Below, piece by piece: positions 17,670 through 32,463 of a DNA stretch of 35,975 nt. Source of the DNA: a virus; IMG/VR virus record IMGVR_UViG_3300032285_000898, positions 1 through 35,975 of that record, one strand, 5' to 3'. The notes under the pieces were generated by a model. It saw only the letters and a list, made by a program, of their open reading frames with translations, was not told the DNA's origin and did not search any database. Position numbers and translations under genes: made by a program. How positions within the stretch are numbered: position 1 is the first letter of the stretch; each line of letters opens with the position of its first letter.

Positions 17670-18014
17670 ATGCCAGCCGTAACTATCGGAACTCAAGGGC
17701 TTGTTTGGGGTTGCACCGCAGAGGCTATTGGTCTTGTGCAGTCTTTTAGCGAAGCTCGCAACATTAGCAAATCAGAAATAACAAACAATTTTGGGGAGAT
17801 TGTTGGAGTAGCATATTACAACCCTACCACCGCATATTCACTTTCCGTTGCCGTAACTGGTGCAATTTCCGTTACTGCTGGTGGTGCTTTGGCGGCCCTT
17901 GCAAATGCGGCTACGGTTGGAACGACTAGGATTGATTCCTTGACGATCAACAAATCGCCCGATGCGTTTGTTACCCTCGACATCTCGGCTACTGGCTATC
18001 CAAACGTAAGTTAA
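17670..18014 (+). CDS. Putative major tail tube protein
   Basis: This 114-residue protein is beta-rich (VTIGTQGLVWGCTAE at the start, then a strand AYSLSVAVTG, a helix ALAALANAATVG and closing strands DAFVTLDISATGYP). It stands between tail-completion genes and tail chaperones, where the tube protein is expected, and has the strongest ribosome site of the tail genes (AAAGGAGAA) plus the TTGACA leader at 17647, consistent with high expression. It is shorter than most tube proteins (150-250), so the assignment rests on place and translation signals. Confidence 0.55.
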   Translation: MPAVTIGTQGLVWGCTAEAIGLVQSFSEARNISKSEITNNFGEIVGVAYYNPTTAYSLSVAVTGAISVTAGGALAALANAATVGTTRIDSLTINKSPDAFVTLDISATGYPNVS

Positions 18015-18052: not shown

Positions 18053-18433
18053 ATGATGGAAGCCTTTTGGGGAACAACAAATATCAAGGTGGCATCTGCC
18101 GTTGCCACTTATGGTGGTAAGCTACGAACCACCGACCCGGTAACGACCCAAGTTTACGAGGATGGCAGGAGGCAGACAACCTTTTGGTTTCAGGCAGATG
18201 GAGCCGGAACAATGGCTAGGGATGAAATGCAATGTCATTGGTCTGAAATGAAAAGCGATATAGAGTCTCCAATTCGATATATTCGTGCCGCCCTTGAAAA
18301 CCGAGAAACACTTCTCGGCTTGGTTAAGAACAAGGTTGAACCAATTCGCATCATTCAGCGTGGAAATCAAACGCTTCTTATCCCAGAAAACGCAAAACCA
18401 GAACTCAAGAAAGCAATCCTAAAACACCTATGA
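18053..18433 (+). CDS. Hypothetical tail-region protein
   Basis: The 126-residue protein is placed between tube and tail chaperones. It contains GRRQTTFWFQADGAGTMARD and a helix-rich part, IRYIRAALENRETLLGLVKN. No known motif is seen. The leader has AAATCCT (18038-18044) and lacks a clear ribosome site. A second ATG at 18056 could be the start. The stop overlaps the chaperone start by ATGA. It may be an extra chaperone or a minor tail protein. Confidence 0.55.
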   Translation: MMEAFWGTTNIKVASAVATYGGKLRTTDPVTTQVYEDGRRQTTFWFQADGAGTMARDEMQCHWSEMKSDIESPIRYIRAALENRETLLGLVKNKVEPIRIIQRGNQTLLIPENAKPELKKAILKHL

Positions 18434-18813
18434 GCATATCCCTAGAAGAAGAGCTAAATTCATCGTTTGTATCCCCAGAGCGTGAGTTTATGGGCGAGAA
18501 ACTAGCCCCATACACCGAGGGGTCTAGATTGCTTTTGTTGCAAATTAGAGACGATGAAGATAGCTCCATTTACTTTATTTGGTCTTTTGTCTATATGCAC
18601 ATTGAGCTTGCCAAAGATAGAAAAGAGGCAATCAAGCTAGCTTGGAACAAGAACTTGTTTAGGGAAAAGGTTTTTTTGTGGGCCGATAACAAAACACAAG
18701 CAGATCGTGATATAGCAACCAACCTTGTTTCTTCCATTATTGAAGAAGCAAGCAAGGGACAGATTGAGGTATTGCCAACCCCCGGAGCCGTTCAGCAATC
18801 GGGAAACGCCTAA
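18430..18813 (+). CDS. Tail assembly chaperone, short form (gpG-like)
   Basis: The 127-residue protein is mostly helical (LSLEEEL-type start, SIYFIWSFVYMHIELAKDRK, KEAIKLAWNKN) and ends in a polar tail (QIEVLPTPGAVQQSGNA). Its position before the tape-measure gene, and the overlapping second frame reached through a slippery GGGAAAC at 18801, match gpG of lambda-type phages, which binds the tape measure during tail assembly. It starts through an ATGA overlap. Confidence 0.75.
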   Translation: MSISLEEELNSSFVSPEREFMGEKLAPYTEGSRLLLLQIRDDEDSSIYFIWSFVYMHIELAKDRKEAIKLAWNKNLFREKVFLWADNKTQADRDIATNLVSSIIEEASKGQIEVLPTPGAVQQSGNA

Positions 18814-19016
18814 CGCCGGGGGGAACTGCTTCTTTCTTGTTCTCTCTGGCAGAAAAAACTGGTTGGGACATTGATTACATTTTATGGCAAGTTCCATTAT
18901 CCATTATGTGCCAAGCATCCCATTGTTTCTTGTGGATGGCTGGTGCAAAATGCAGACGCAAGGGTTCAATGAGTGGGTCGGATGTAGCCGAGTTAAGCCG
19001 TCTGATTGGCATTTAA
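18430..19016 (+). CDS. Tail assembly chaperone, frameshift fusion (gpG-T-like)
   Basis: A -1 shift at GGGAAAC (18801-18807) moves ribosomes to a frame that stays open from 18807 to the stop at 19014-19016, adding 69 residues and giving about 195 in all. The added part (AEKTGWDIDYILWQVPLSIM, then FLWMAGAKCRR) is a clear gpT-like domain that binds tube subunits. Coordinates cover both frames; the join is near 18807. The T frame has no ATG placed to explain the sequence, so frameshift is the best explanation. Confidence 0.82.
18801..18807 (+). promoter_or_regulatory. Slippery heptamer GGGAAAC for -1 frameshift
   Basis: The heptamer reads G GGA AAC in the frame of the short chaperone, the X-XXY-YYZ form needed for -1 slippage, and lambda uses GGGAAAG at the same place. 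It lies two codons before the short form's stop, so only shifted ribosomes continue. A GC-rich CGCCGGGGGG stretch just downstream could slow the ribosome. Confidence 0.85.
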
Positions 19017-19031
19017 CAAAAGATTAAGTTT

Positions 19032-19742
19032 ATGATTTCTGATGCCGTAATAGTAAATCACAAGGAATTTAAGCAAGCCCTTGATATTTACTTGCGTTTG
19101 AGCAAGAAAACTATGGCAGATGCCATTAACGAAAAAATGGTCAATGTGGCGTTTAAGTCTGCTCAATTTACAGAACCCACCGGGCCTAAATCCACGGCCT
19201 CTGCGAAAATACGAGCCGAGATTATTGGACTACCAATTACCAAGGATGGCGGGGTCAAGCGTTATGGGGATAAGAGGTTTGTTGGTGCATACAAGCTAAT
19301 GAATTGGCAAAGGAAAAACTCTGGCCTTGTCCCAAGGGGCAATAAGTTCGGTAAGCGATCTGCCAAGGGTAGGCTACGCAAATTCATTTCACATAGGGCA
19401 AAGTCGGCCAAGTGGATTAGAATTGGGTGGTCTCAAGCGGCACAAGTCTTTGGCAAGAAGTTCACAAGAGGAAAGTTTGATGAGGCATTAAACAAGAGGC
19501 TCGGTGGAGGAACACCAGCCAAGCCAGCAAGTATTGTAGAAGCCGAGATTTTTAACAATGCAGGGCGTTATGATGTGCGATATAAACCAGCAAAGCCAAG
19601 AACCCCATCTGGTGCTATGGTGGTTGGCAAGCCGGGTCTGATAAAAGGCATACAAGCCGAGATCAAAAATATGTATGTTTATATCATTCCAAGGCTTGCA
19701 AAGGATTGGTATGGCATAAAGGGCAAGATTAAATTGGCGTAA
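19032..19742 (+). CDS. Putative minor tail protein
   Basis: The 236-residue protein is strongly basic, with clusters such as KFGKRSAKGRLRKF and a WIRIGWSQAAQVFGKKFTRG segment. It lies between tail chaperones and tape measure, an unusual slot. The C-terminal region has KPGLIKGIQAEIKNMYVY. I do not recognise a family; a minor tail or assembly role is inference. The ribosome site is weak and the start is 16 bases past the T-frame stop. Confidence 0.5.
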   Translation: MISDAVIVNHKEFKQALDIYLRLSKKTMADAINEKMVNVAFKSAQFTEPTGPKSTASAKIRAEIIGLPITKDGGVKRYGDKRFVGAYKLMNWQRKNSGLVPRGNKFGKRSAKGRLRKFISHRAKSAKWIRIGWSQAAQVFGKKFTRGKFDEALNKRLGGGTPAKPASIVEAEIFNNAGRYDVRYKPAKPRTPSGAMVVGKPGLIKGIQAEIKNMYVYIIPRLAKDWYGIKGKIKLA

Positions 19743-19746
19743 TGCA

Positions 19747-21132
19747 ATGGAAGAGCTAAAATTTAAGATTATTGCTGATAGCAAGGGTGTAGATGCCACG
19801 ATGAAAAGCGTGGCAAGAAGCACCGATAGTGTTGCAAAAAGTGGAGAGGGAGCCAATCATTCCTTAAAGCATCTTATTAAGACATTTGTTGGCGTTGGAA
19901 CTGGTGCGGAGTCTGCGGCTGGTGCTTTTAGAACTTTGGCTAGGCTTGGGACGGCTGGAATTGTGACAGCTAGTGCGGCAGAAGCACTTAATAAATTTGG
20001 CGAAGCAATCAAAGAGAACGCCAAAAATTACTATGAAACAAATAAATCTTTGGCAGAAGCCTTTGATCAAGGACTAAAATCCACATCAGTCGAACAAGCC
20101 GATAGTGCCTTGAAGTCGGTAAATGATAGACTTGAAAAGATTCGTGAAGAAGAAGCAAAGTTTAGCCCATTTAAGGCATTGTTGGGGGTTGCGGAAAAAC
20201 TAACTGGGCAAGACTTTGGAACTAAAAATCTTGAAAAAGCAAGAGACCTAGCCCTTCAAGAGCGTGATGCGCTTGAAGAAATTGTTGCATCTAGAATTAA
20301 AGAAAGAGATGCAGTCGAATATACTTCCGAAGGAATTAAAGCCCTAGAAAGACAGCAGAAACTTAATAAAATAATGCTTTCGCAATCGGCTATGGCTGGC
20401 AGGGCTAGGCAAGAGCAGGTCGATATGGCCTATGAAGATTTGCAAACAACATCGCTTGTTGTTGATGAATATCAAAAACTTCTTTCAAATCTTCAAAAAA
20501 TAGACGAAGGACAACGCAACCAAAAACTTTATCAAGAAACAATCGACAAACTATTAGACGCTAGAGTTCAAAAAGAACAATCACTTCTTAATTTACAGAA
20601 AGCACAAAGGGCAGAGGGCGATAAAGCCGCACAAGCCACGAAGACATTTGGGGGCGGACTTCTTGGCTCCTCACAAGCTGGACGGCAAGCACTTGAAACA
20701 GCACAAAAACAAAGAGCAGAAAAAGTAAGGCAAGAGAATTTTAAGGCTCAAGATGTTTATTTTAGCGAACAAGCTAAAGCCGAAAGCGCAAGAACCGGAA
20801 CTCGTGTAACGGCTCAAGATATGCGGGTTAGAGAAGCACAAAGAGTTTCAGCCGCAAATGCCCCCACTCTTGCAGAGCAAGCACAAGCCCAAGCCCAAGG
20901 AATTAGCCCAGAGCAAATGGCAATAGCAAATGTGGCTCAAAAGCAAACTGGTGGTGGATGGCTTAAAGACCTTCCCAAACAATCTTTAGATTGGAGTATG
21001 GGAGGAGCATCAAAACAAGAAGGACAAAATGTTGCTGGTGGAAAGGGAGGATTATTGGAAACGCTTAATTCAGTTCTTCAATCCTTGGCATCTGCTCCGC
21101 TTGTTACATCTGGTGCAGGAGGTTCTAAATGA
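19747..21132 (+). CDS. Tail length tape-measure protein
   Basis: At 461 residues, this is a mostly alpha-helical, Ala/Gln/Glu-rich protein with long coiled-coil tracts (residues 80-250, 270-380), a hydrophobic stretch near 50-85, and a glycine-rich C-terminus. It starts with ELKFKIIADSKGVDATMKSV, a common tape-measure opening. About 0.15 nm of tail per residue would give a tail near 70 nm. It follows the frameshifted chaperones, as expected. Confidence 0.8.
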   Translation: MEELKFKIIADSKGVDATMKSVARSTDSVAKSGEGANHSLKHLIKTFVGVGTGAESAAGAFRTLARLGTAGIVTASAAEALNKFGEAIKENAKNYYETNKSLAEAFDQGLKSTSVEQADSALKSVNDRLEKIREEEAKFSPFKALLGVAEKLTGQDFGTKNLEKARDLALQERDALEEIVASRIKERDAVEYTSEGIKALERQQKLNKIMLSQSAMAGRARQEQVDMAYEDLQTTSLVVDEYQKLLSNLQKIDEGQRNQKLYQETIDKLLDARVQKEQSLLNLQKAQRAEGDKAAQATKTFGGGLLGSSQAGRQALETAQKQRAEKVRQENFKAQDVYFSEQAKAESARTGTRVTAQDMRVREAQRVSAANAPTLAEQAQAQAQGISPEQMAIANVAQKQTGGGWLKDLPKQSLDWSMGGASKQEGQNVAGGKGGLLETLNSVLQSLASAPLVTSGAGGSK

Positions 21133-31017: not shown

Positions 31018-31742
31018 AGTTGCCGTGGATTAAATTCTACGCATCGGATTGGCTTTCTGATGAAGCCGTTCGGTCTTGTTCGGTGGAGGCTAGGGGGTTG
31101 TGGATTGATATGATTTCGCTAATGGCAAAATCTGAAATTCACGGATACCTATTGATTGGCGGCAAGCCAGCACGAGCCGAACAACTGGCAAGAATTGTTG
31201 GCCTAACCACGGAACGCACGATGGCGTTAATGGATGAACTGCACTCCTCCGGGGTGTTCTCTTTCGATAAAGAGACCATCATTTCACGCAGAATGGTAAA
31301 GGATGAGCAATTACGCAAGTCAGACGCTACTAGGCAGATGCGTAAGCGTCACGCCGATGTCACGCCGATGTCACGCAAATGTCCAGTCGATGTCACGGGG
31401 CAGAGACTAGAAGCCAGAAGCCAGAAGCCAGATATACATACAAGGGCTGATCGCCCTATTCGTGCGGAATGGATTGCTTATGCAAAAGAAATTGGGTGGA
31501 CGGGTGCTGATGTGGAGGGAGCTTTTGATTACTATGAATCGAACGGATGGAAGGTCGGAGGCAAAGCCCCGGTAAAAGATTGGAGAGCGTGCGCCAGAAA
31601 TTGTTATAGACGGAACCAAACCAAACCAATGAAAGGAAACCAACCAATGAAGAAAATAGTCAGTCAATGCGAGAGCCTACCCACCTATAAGGTGATGGGC
31701 TTTGCCACACGAGAAGCGTGGGTGAAAGCGGGTTGCCCATGA
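31014..31742 (+). CDS. Replication initiator / replisome organiser-like protein
   Basis: In 242 residues, the N-terminal domain (WIKFYASDWLSDEAVRSCS, ARGLWIDMISLMAKS, a winged-helix part ARIVGLTTERTMALMDELHS) is the DUF1376-like DNA-binding fold of phage replication proteins. A linker (about 105-145) is followed by WIAYAKEIGWTGADVEGAF and GGKAPVKDWRACARNCYRRN, a C-terminal domain typical of proteins that recruit the helicase. The linker DNA carries three CGATGTCACG repeats, as lambda O carries its origin. An in-frame ATG at 31647 has an early-type leader (AAAGGAAACCAACCAATG). Confidence 0.7.
   Translation: MKLPWIKFYASDWLSDEAVRSCSVEARGLWIDMISLMAKSEIHGYLLIGGKPARAEQLARIVGLTTERTMALMDELHSSGVFSFDKETIISRRMVKDEQLRKSDATRQMRKRHADVTPMSRKCPVDVTGQRLEARSQKPDIHTRADRPIRAEWIAYAKEIGWTGADVEGAFDYYESNGWKVGGKAPVKDWRACARNCYRRNQTKPMKGNQPMKKIVSQCESLPTYKVMGFATREAWVKAGCP
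31355..31431 (+). repeat. Candidate origin: iterons inside the initiator gene
   Basis: CGATGTCACG occurs at 31355, 31366 and 31388, spaced 11 and 22 bases, i.e. on the same face of the helix. Next come three 7-base AGAAGCC units (31409-31429), then A+T-rich TATACATAC. Lambda's origin has the same plan: iterons and an A+T-rich stretch in the middle of its initiator gene. Function as an origin is inference. Confidence 0.5.
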
Positions 31743-32200
31743 GAGAAATTCTAGACCTACCATTTGCCGCACTCGTTTACCGGGTGAAGGTGCTTGAGGA
31801 AAAACTTGTAGATCAAGCCAACCAGATAACCACACTAGCCAGTCAGATAGCTCACAATCGAACGGAAATGGCCTTAAAAGAGGCTAAAGAGGTCGAGGAA
31901 GGCATAACCACCATGTTGCAGATTCCAAAGGATTTAATGCCCACTATTGGCAAATATAGGGCAAGGAAGAACCGATCTTATGAAATCGTTAAGAAGCGTT
32001 GGGCCTTGTGGAAAGTGCAGTTTGAGTCTGGCCTTTCCCAAAACCAGATTGCAAAGGCTTGGGGTTGCGACCACGCAAGTGTTTCATACGCAAAGAAGCG
32101 CAACTTTGAGCCGAGGATTACAAGGGGACGGCCACTCGTGGAGTTCCCGGTTAATCCAAGGACGGCGGCACAATCAAAGAAAAGGATGGGTTTAATATGA
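31739..32200 (+). CDS. DnaA-domain-IV-like HTH protein
   Basis: From ATG 31739 (ATGA overlap) the protein has 153 residues: a coiled coil (about 10-55, RVKVLEEKLVDQANQITTLA), then a C-terminal HTH, VQFESGLSQNQIAKAWGCDH with ASVSYAKKR. The DHxSV pattern and preceding helix resemble the DNA-binding domain of bacterial DnaA. No ATPase part is present. Right after the initiator, it may bind origin or promoter sites. Confidence 0.6.
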   Translation: MREILDLPFAALVYRVKVLEEKLVDQANQITTLASQIAHNRTEMALKEAKEVEEGITTMLQIPKDLMPTIGKYRARKNRSYEIVKKRWALWKVQFESGLSQNQIAKAWGCDHASVSYAKKRNFEPRITRGRPLVEFPVNPRTAAQSKKRMGLI

Positions 32201-32463
32201 TTGCGATTCACCAAGCAGACCAATTCGAGTTGCCATTTATGCGAACCACTCACTCGGTAAAGATCGAGGGCAACGAACAGAACGCCAGAATCCTAGCTCA
32301 CTTGCAGGGAGGCCGAACACTCACGGCTCTTGAAGCATTGGATTGGTTCAAGTGCTTTCGTTTGGCTAGTCGTATCCACGACCTTAAAAAAGCTGGATAC
32401 GACGTGCAGAAGCGAATGGTAAAGACGGCAAGCGGCAAGAGTGTAGCAGAGTATTATTTATGA
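32197..32463 (+). CDS. HTH domain protein
   Basis: The 88-residue protein has the phage HTH outline ARILAHLQGGRTLTALEALD, then FRLASRIHDLKKAGYDVQKR and a closing wing (TASGKSVAEYYL). Such proteins are frequent in phage early regions and may regulate transcription. Both ends overlap neighbours by four bases. Confidence 0.65.
   Translation: MIAIHQADQFELPFMRTTHSVKIEGNEQNARILAHLQGGRTLTALEALDWFKCFRLASRIHDLKKAGYDVQKRMVKTASGKSVAEYYL

Follow-up and report, generated by a model that had tools for sequence, protein, structure and literature searches.

The question raised by this locus is whether a short open reading frame in an uncultivated phage ends where its stop codon indicates, or whether some ribosomes would leave its frame just ahead of the stop and continue into a second coding region. 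The window, i.e., the whole stretch of DNA that was analyzed, comprises 35,975 nucleotides of IMG/VR record IMGVR_UViG_3300032285_000898. We consider it probable, at about 0.88, that a tail assembly chaperone gene of the lambda G/GT type is located here and carries a signal for programmed -1 ribosomal frameshifting. Tailed phages have long been known to use the G-T frameshift; what is added here is an undescribed sequence family that would employ this established mechanism. The features concerned are as follows.

17670 to 18014, plus strand: putative tail tube (major tail) protein; all 46 relatives have it in this position; no family match
18053 to 18433, plus strand: ORF of 126 aa, its stop overlapping the start of G in ATGA; conserved in all 46 relatives
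18430 to 18813, plus strand: G-like ORF of 127 aa in the 0 frame, proposed short form of a tail assembly chaperone; from the ORF list, with 47 homologues
18801 to 18807, plus strand: slippery heptamer G_GGA_AAC, recognized by its phase; slippery in 84 of 84 distinct junctions
18811 to 18813, plus strand: TAA, the 0-frame stop of G, read directly
18807 to 19016, plus strand: T-like region in the -1 frame, 69 codons plus stop, proposed C-terminal domain of a G-T fusion; delimited by conservation and pN/pS
18815 to 18822 paired with 18843 to 18850, plus strand: predicted frameshift-stimulating hairpin, from covariation and minimum free energy (MFE); spacer of 7 nt from the heptamer
19032 to 19742, plus strand: ORF of 236 aa between T and the putative tape measure gene; present in 45 of 47 representatives
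19747 to 21132, plus strand: putative tape measure protein of 461 aa, from position, variable length and low conservation; no family match

The heptamer and the -1 frame in the window

Direct reading of the end of G gives the codons TCG GGA AAC GCC TAA, which puts GGGAAAC in the X_XXY_YYZ phase with the TAA two codons past the heptamer. From C18807 the -1 frame encodes 69 residues, RLTPGGTASFLFSLAEKTGWDIDYILWQVPLSIM...RLIGI, up to a stop at 19014-19016, and with Gly-Asn decoded before the slip the G-T fusion would comprise 126 + 69 = 195 amino acids. The initial annotation, which had described a heptamer in the exact phase for -1 slippage near the stop at 18811 (two codons ahead of it), a further 69 residues open in the -1 frame and a fusion of about 195, agrees with this reading and with the translation of both frames. 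The predicted tryptic peptide spanning the join is GQIEVLPTPGAVQQSGNR, or GQIEVLPTPGAVQQSGK if the slip precedes decoding of AAC, and the C-terminal peptide of G is GQIEVLPTPGAVQQSGNA.

The string GGGAAAC is no commoner in the window than expected by chance (5 found, 5.9 expected). Across the 58 putative genes of the window there are 55 in-phase XXXYYYZ heptamers, two of which lie within 60 nt of a stop and are followed by a -1 frame that continues past 60 codons; the heptamer at 18801 is one of them. The sequence of the window by itself is therefore suggestive, and comparison with relatives is needed. The other such heptamer is GGGTTTA at 32188-32194, near the end of the ORF at 31718-32200, where the -1 frame is open for 86 codons. 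This frame is that of a gene at 32197-32463 with its own ATG overlapping the stop, and the arrangement likely represents an ordinary gene overlap.

Conservation of the heptamer among relatives

A search of viral contigs with G returned 41 relatives, and alignment searches with G and with T returned up to 80 loci each. From these related uncultivated phages we assembled 84 distinct junctions of 73 nt, and a set of 47 representatives, no two of which are 93% or more alike; over these 47 diverse homologues G has a mean column identity of 66%. Isolate phages searched with G gave no match at E <=1, the same phages searched with T queries and with a second G homologue gave chance matches only, and the bacterial and archaeal genomes searched yielded zero relatives. 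The lineage is thus known here from metagenome contigs only. The terminase of the window reaches about 31% identity at best to isolate phages. We read the names of the metagenomes as pointing to lakes or other freshwater.

All 84 distinct junctions carry a slippery heptamer, namely GGGAAAC (75), CCCAAAC (6), GGGAAAA (2) or GGGAAAT (1), with a conserved T domain behind it in the -1 frame. In every relative with a complete junction the heptamer lies one or two codons ahead of the G stop, which follows it directly or one codon later. The codon preceding GGA in the 47 representatives specifies Pro, Gln, Ser, Leu, Val or Glu, always with G as its third base (G-ending codons make up 22% in this phage), and in the two CCA forms among these representatives the preceding codon ends in C. 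In the CCC forms the three bases have all changed jointly relative to GGG. The CCC lineages L122 and L164 are placed on separate branches of the tree calculated from G and T, and 2% of the bootstrap trees unite them; a single origin of the CCC form would be compatible with the starred branches of the tree taken alone.

This distribution bears on two explanations that do not invoke ribosomal slippage. Any split frame known from one metagenome contig might be an assembly artefact, and the two parts could then represent one continuous gene divided by a sequencing error or a gene that is broken. However, 84 distinct junctions, drawn from many samples, share this frame relation, each of them at a slippery heptamer, and an error would neither recur at the same base nor covary with the hairpin described below. 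The relatives refute this explanation, to which we assign a negligible probability. Slippage of the transcribing polymerase, rather than of the ribosome, would result in an identical fusion product. Transcriptional slippage requires long homopolymers, whereas the runs present here are three Gs or Cs followed by three As (four in the two GGGAAAA forms), and the codon phase of the heptamer and a hairpin at a set spacing are expected for ribosomal slippage only. We consider transcriptional slippage extremely improbable.

Coding selection in the T region

In the 47 diverse homologues, conservation of T begins at the first codon past the heptamer, ahead of any candidate start codon. Mean pN/pS over the first 50 T codons is 0.43 in the -1 frame, whereas the 0 and +1 frames give 0.97 and 1.59, respectively. 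As judged from these substitution patterns, T evolves as a protein in the -1 frame only.

If T were a separate small gene with its own start, then the heptamer might be incidental. In the window, TTG at T codon 11 (position 18837) comes after a G-rich stretch (GGGGGG) and could in principle start a short T; the T frame also contains ATGs at codons 34, 44 and 55. However, the TTG is not conserved. Many relatives contain no ATG, GTG or TTG within the first 25 T codons, and the loci L003, L005, L046 and L093-L095 contain none across the entire T frame, which rules out a separate start as the usual way of producing T. Conservation of T from right behind the heptamer, before any such start, and retention of the heptamer in every junction also argue against a separate T, which we regard as very improbable. 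The initial annotation had stated that T has no ATG suited to produce it alone; the T frame of the window does contain three ATGs and the TTG, but the statement holds in that no early start is conserved and some relatives have no start at all.

A covarying hairpin downstream of the heptamer

The hairpin at 18815-18850, which was absent from the initial annotation, was found independently by RNAalifold. Over the 47 representatives 92.8% of the cells of the stem are paired, compared to 21-59% in controls in which the stem was slid along the alignment, and 34 cells have changed on both sides. None of 500 shuffles reached the observed number of paired cells, the number of cells changed on both sides, or the covariation score; on two further measures, the number of pairs with both-side change and the number of further pair types, the hairpin scored no higher than the shuffles. 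In all 84 junctions the stem runs for 6-8 bp without a break. The spacer of 7 nt, together with the compensatory changes, corresponds to an RNA structure 5-9 nt downstream of the slippery site.

Pair 32/57 illustrates the covariation: it is C-G in 32 of the 47 representatives, G-C in 13 and G-U in 2, and it is never broken. The pair joins the second base of T codon 5 to the wobble base of codon 13, and the two co-change in 47 of 47 representatives. The encoded protein places little constraint on the wobble side of codon 13, and its conservation therefore does not account for this pair. Leu14 of T is always encoded by CTG or TTG, though these represent about 30% of the Leu codons in the phage. 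The 63-nt segment of the window has an MFE z-score of -3.67; single-sequence z-scores in relatives are modest, and the segment of L029 folded alone prefers a different fold. A search of Rfam returned no match, and inspection of the junction rows revealed no conserved Shine-Dalgarno-like stimulator upstream of the heptamer.

The initial annotation had proposed a programmed -1 frameshift at this site. The conserved identity, phase and spacing of the heptamer, the coding selection in the -1 frame, the lack of a conserved internal start and the covarying hairpin strongly support programmed -1 frameshifting that would yield G and G-T products. That slippage occurs, and how efficiently, we infer from this comparison of sequences.

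Are G and G-T tail assembly chaperones?

The gene order speaks for a role in tail assembly. The gene pair is flanked by the putative tail tube gene on one side and the putative tape measure gene on the other, and its long form would arise through a -1 shift near the G stop. Relatives share the order putative tail tube, G, T, putative tape measure, and the putative tail tube gene, the gene at 18053, G and T are retained in all 46 other representatives. The ORF we take as the tape measure gene varies between 353 and 580 aa in relatives and has low sequence conservation. The identities of the tail tube and tape measure proteins are putative, drawn from position, length and character. Elsewhere in the window, the terminase and portal are of the lambda type, and both capsid and cement proteins have matches among head families.

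Sequence comparison, on the other hand, did not connect G or T to characterized chaperones. Searched as single proteins and as 47-member alignments against Pfam and PHROGs, both gave chance-level matches only; nothing convincing was found in PDB by sequence, and no homology to a named tail chaperone by fold; and hhalign comparison with lambda G and T gave probabilities of 0.2% and 0.4%, respectively. The gpT-like domain described in the initial annotation is thus unsupported by sequence, and the HMM comparison with tail chaperones that it had suggested gave no tail chaperone match in Pfam or PHROGs. We infer the chaperone role of G and G-T from position and architecture because these sequence matches are lacking, and it is on gene order and architecture, not on homology, that the assignment to tail chaperones made in the initial annotation is supported.

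The AlphaFold2 model of G (mean pLDDT 80.8) is mostly helical, and that of T has a mean pLDDT of 82.8. The predicted models would allow a chaperone rather than show one. Foldseek with the G model retrieved only unnamed phage proteins (best TM 0.68, E 0.0057), with named tail chaperones at negligible probability only. A match of the T model to the tape measure chaperone of Burkholderia phage Mica (probability 0.33, E 2.7) was too weak to use.

PHROG 11996, a family of 208 aa with no function assigned, gave weak matches to 31 of the 47 T sequences (best E 0.0011; 0.0016 for the window). The match covers a stretch of 21 residues (18843-18905) near the C-terminal end of the PHROG, and it could reflect a distant in-frame relative of T or chance. 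Given the weak and short match and the lack of an assigned function, we set this PHROG aside as a family for T.

An alternative explanation is that the frameshift is real but serves a different protein of this lineage, one of the virion or of its assembly, that is made in two forms. Named tail chaperones are unmatched by sequence or fold, and, unlike in lambda, an extra gene for a protein of 236 aa separates T from the putative tape measure gene. However, the locus conforms to the architecture of tail chaperones in its position and sizes, in having a -1 shift close to the stop of G and in the mostly helical model of G, and tail chaperones of different phages share low sequence similarity (PMC5009743). 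This alternative is unlikely, and the product is very probably a tail-assembly helper of an uncultivated phage.

Comparison with known systems

The arrangement resembles lambda G/GT in the -1 shift on a GGGAAA-type heptamer near the G stop, which gives a short and a long form, and in its placement past the tail tube gene and ahead of the tape measure gene, both putative here. In lambda the heptamer is at 1610-1616 (L171) and the G stop codon at 1632-1634; the initial annotation had stated that lambda-type phages use GGGAAAG at the same place, and in lambda this heptamer lies just ahead of the stop. In contrast to lambda, the heptamer here ends in AAC instead of AAG, T comprises 69 aa instead of the annotated 144 aa, the gene for the 236-aa protein follows T (lambda has none), similarity of the G and T sequences is undetectable, and a conserved covarying hairpin is present.

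The haloarchaeal siphovirus HCTV-1 provides a second comparison: the identical heptamer, G_GGA_AAC, is its reported g-t shift site, with the same proposed role (PMC5009743). The host of HCTV-1 is archaeal, and the likeness is one of heptamer and role. The combination of heptamer, short spacer and stem-loop is also that of the bacterial -1 cassettes of dnaX and of IS3-type elements, which are located in different genes; unlike in those cassettes, no conserved Shine-Dalgarno-like stimulator was seen upstream in the rows inspected here.

The review PMC5009743 describes binding of gpG and gpGT to the tape measure protein and of T to the tail tube protein, a ratio of 30:1, and an arrangement that is widely conserved despite low sequence similarity. 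By analogy, the majority of ribosomes would produce G (127 aa) and stop at 18811, whereas a minority, slowed by the hairpin, would slip back by one base on G_GGA_AAC, bypass the G stop and add 69 residues to form the G-T protein of 195 aa. As in lambda, the abundant G part may serve as a coat for the tape measure protein and the scarce T domain as the means of recruiting tail tube subunits.

Gene lists of this phage and of more than 80 related uncultivated phages would miss the T domain and misjudge the product, and with no convincing match to a Pfam or PHROGs model annotation pipelines cannot recover the family by homology. The heptamer variants together with the covarying stimulator constitute a clean comparative set for the study of how phages tune the ratio of a two-form chaperone. 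We give about even odds to a more specific proposal, i.e., that G and G-T represent a tail chaperone family not previously described, with sequences independent of the families tested here, with selection maintaining both the heptamer ending in AAC and the covarying hairpin, and with switches between GGG and CCC in separate lineages. If this were the case, then the relatives would form a natural series in which the level of slippage is conserved rather than the sequence.

Neighboring genes

The ORF at the position of 19032 encodes 236-304 aa in the 45 representatives that have it; the remaining two loci end there. In some clades its counterpart directly follows the T stop. The ORF at 18053-18433 equals G in its conservation across all 46 relatives, is unmatched in isolate phages, and may encode a tail component new to the libraries. 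In three relatives (L106, L113 and L117) the putative tail tube gene and the 18053 gene are 96-100% identical to those of the window, whereas identity falls to 56-72% in G and T, which suggests a recombination event immediately upstream of G.
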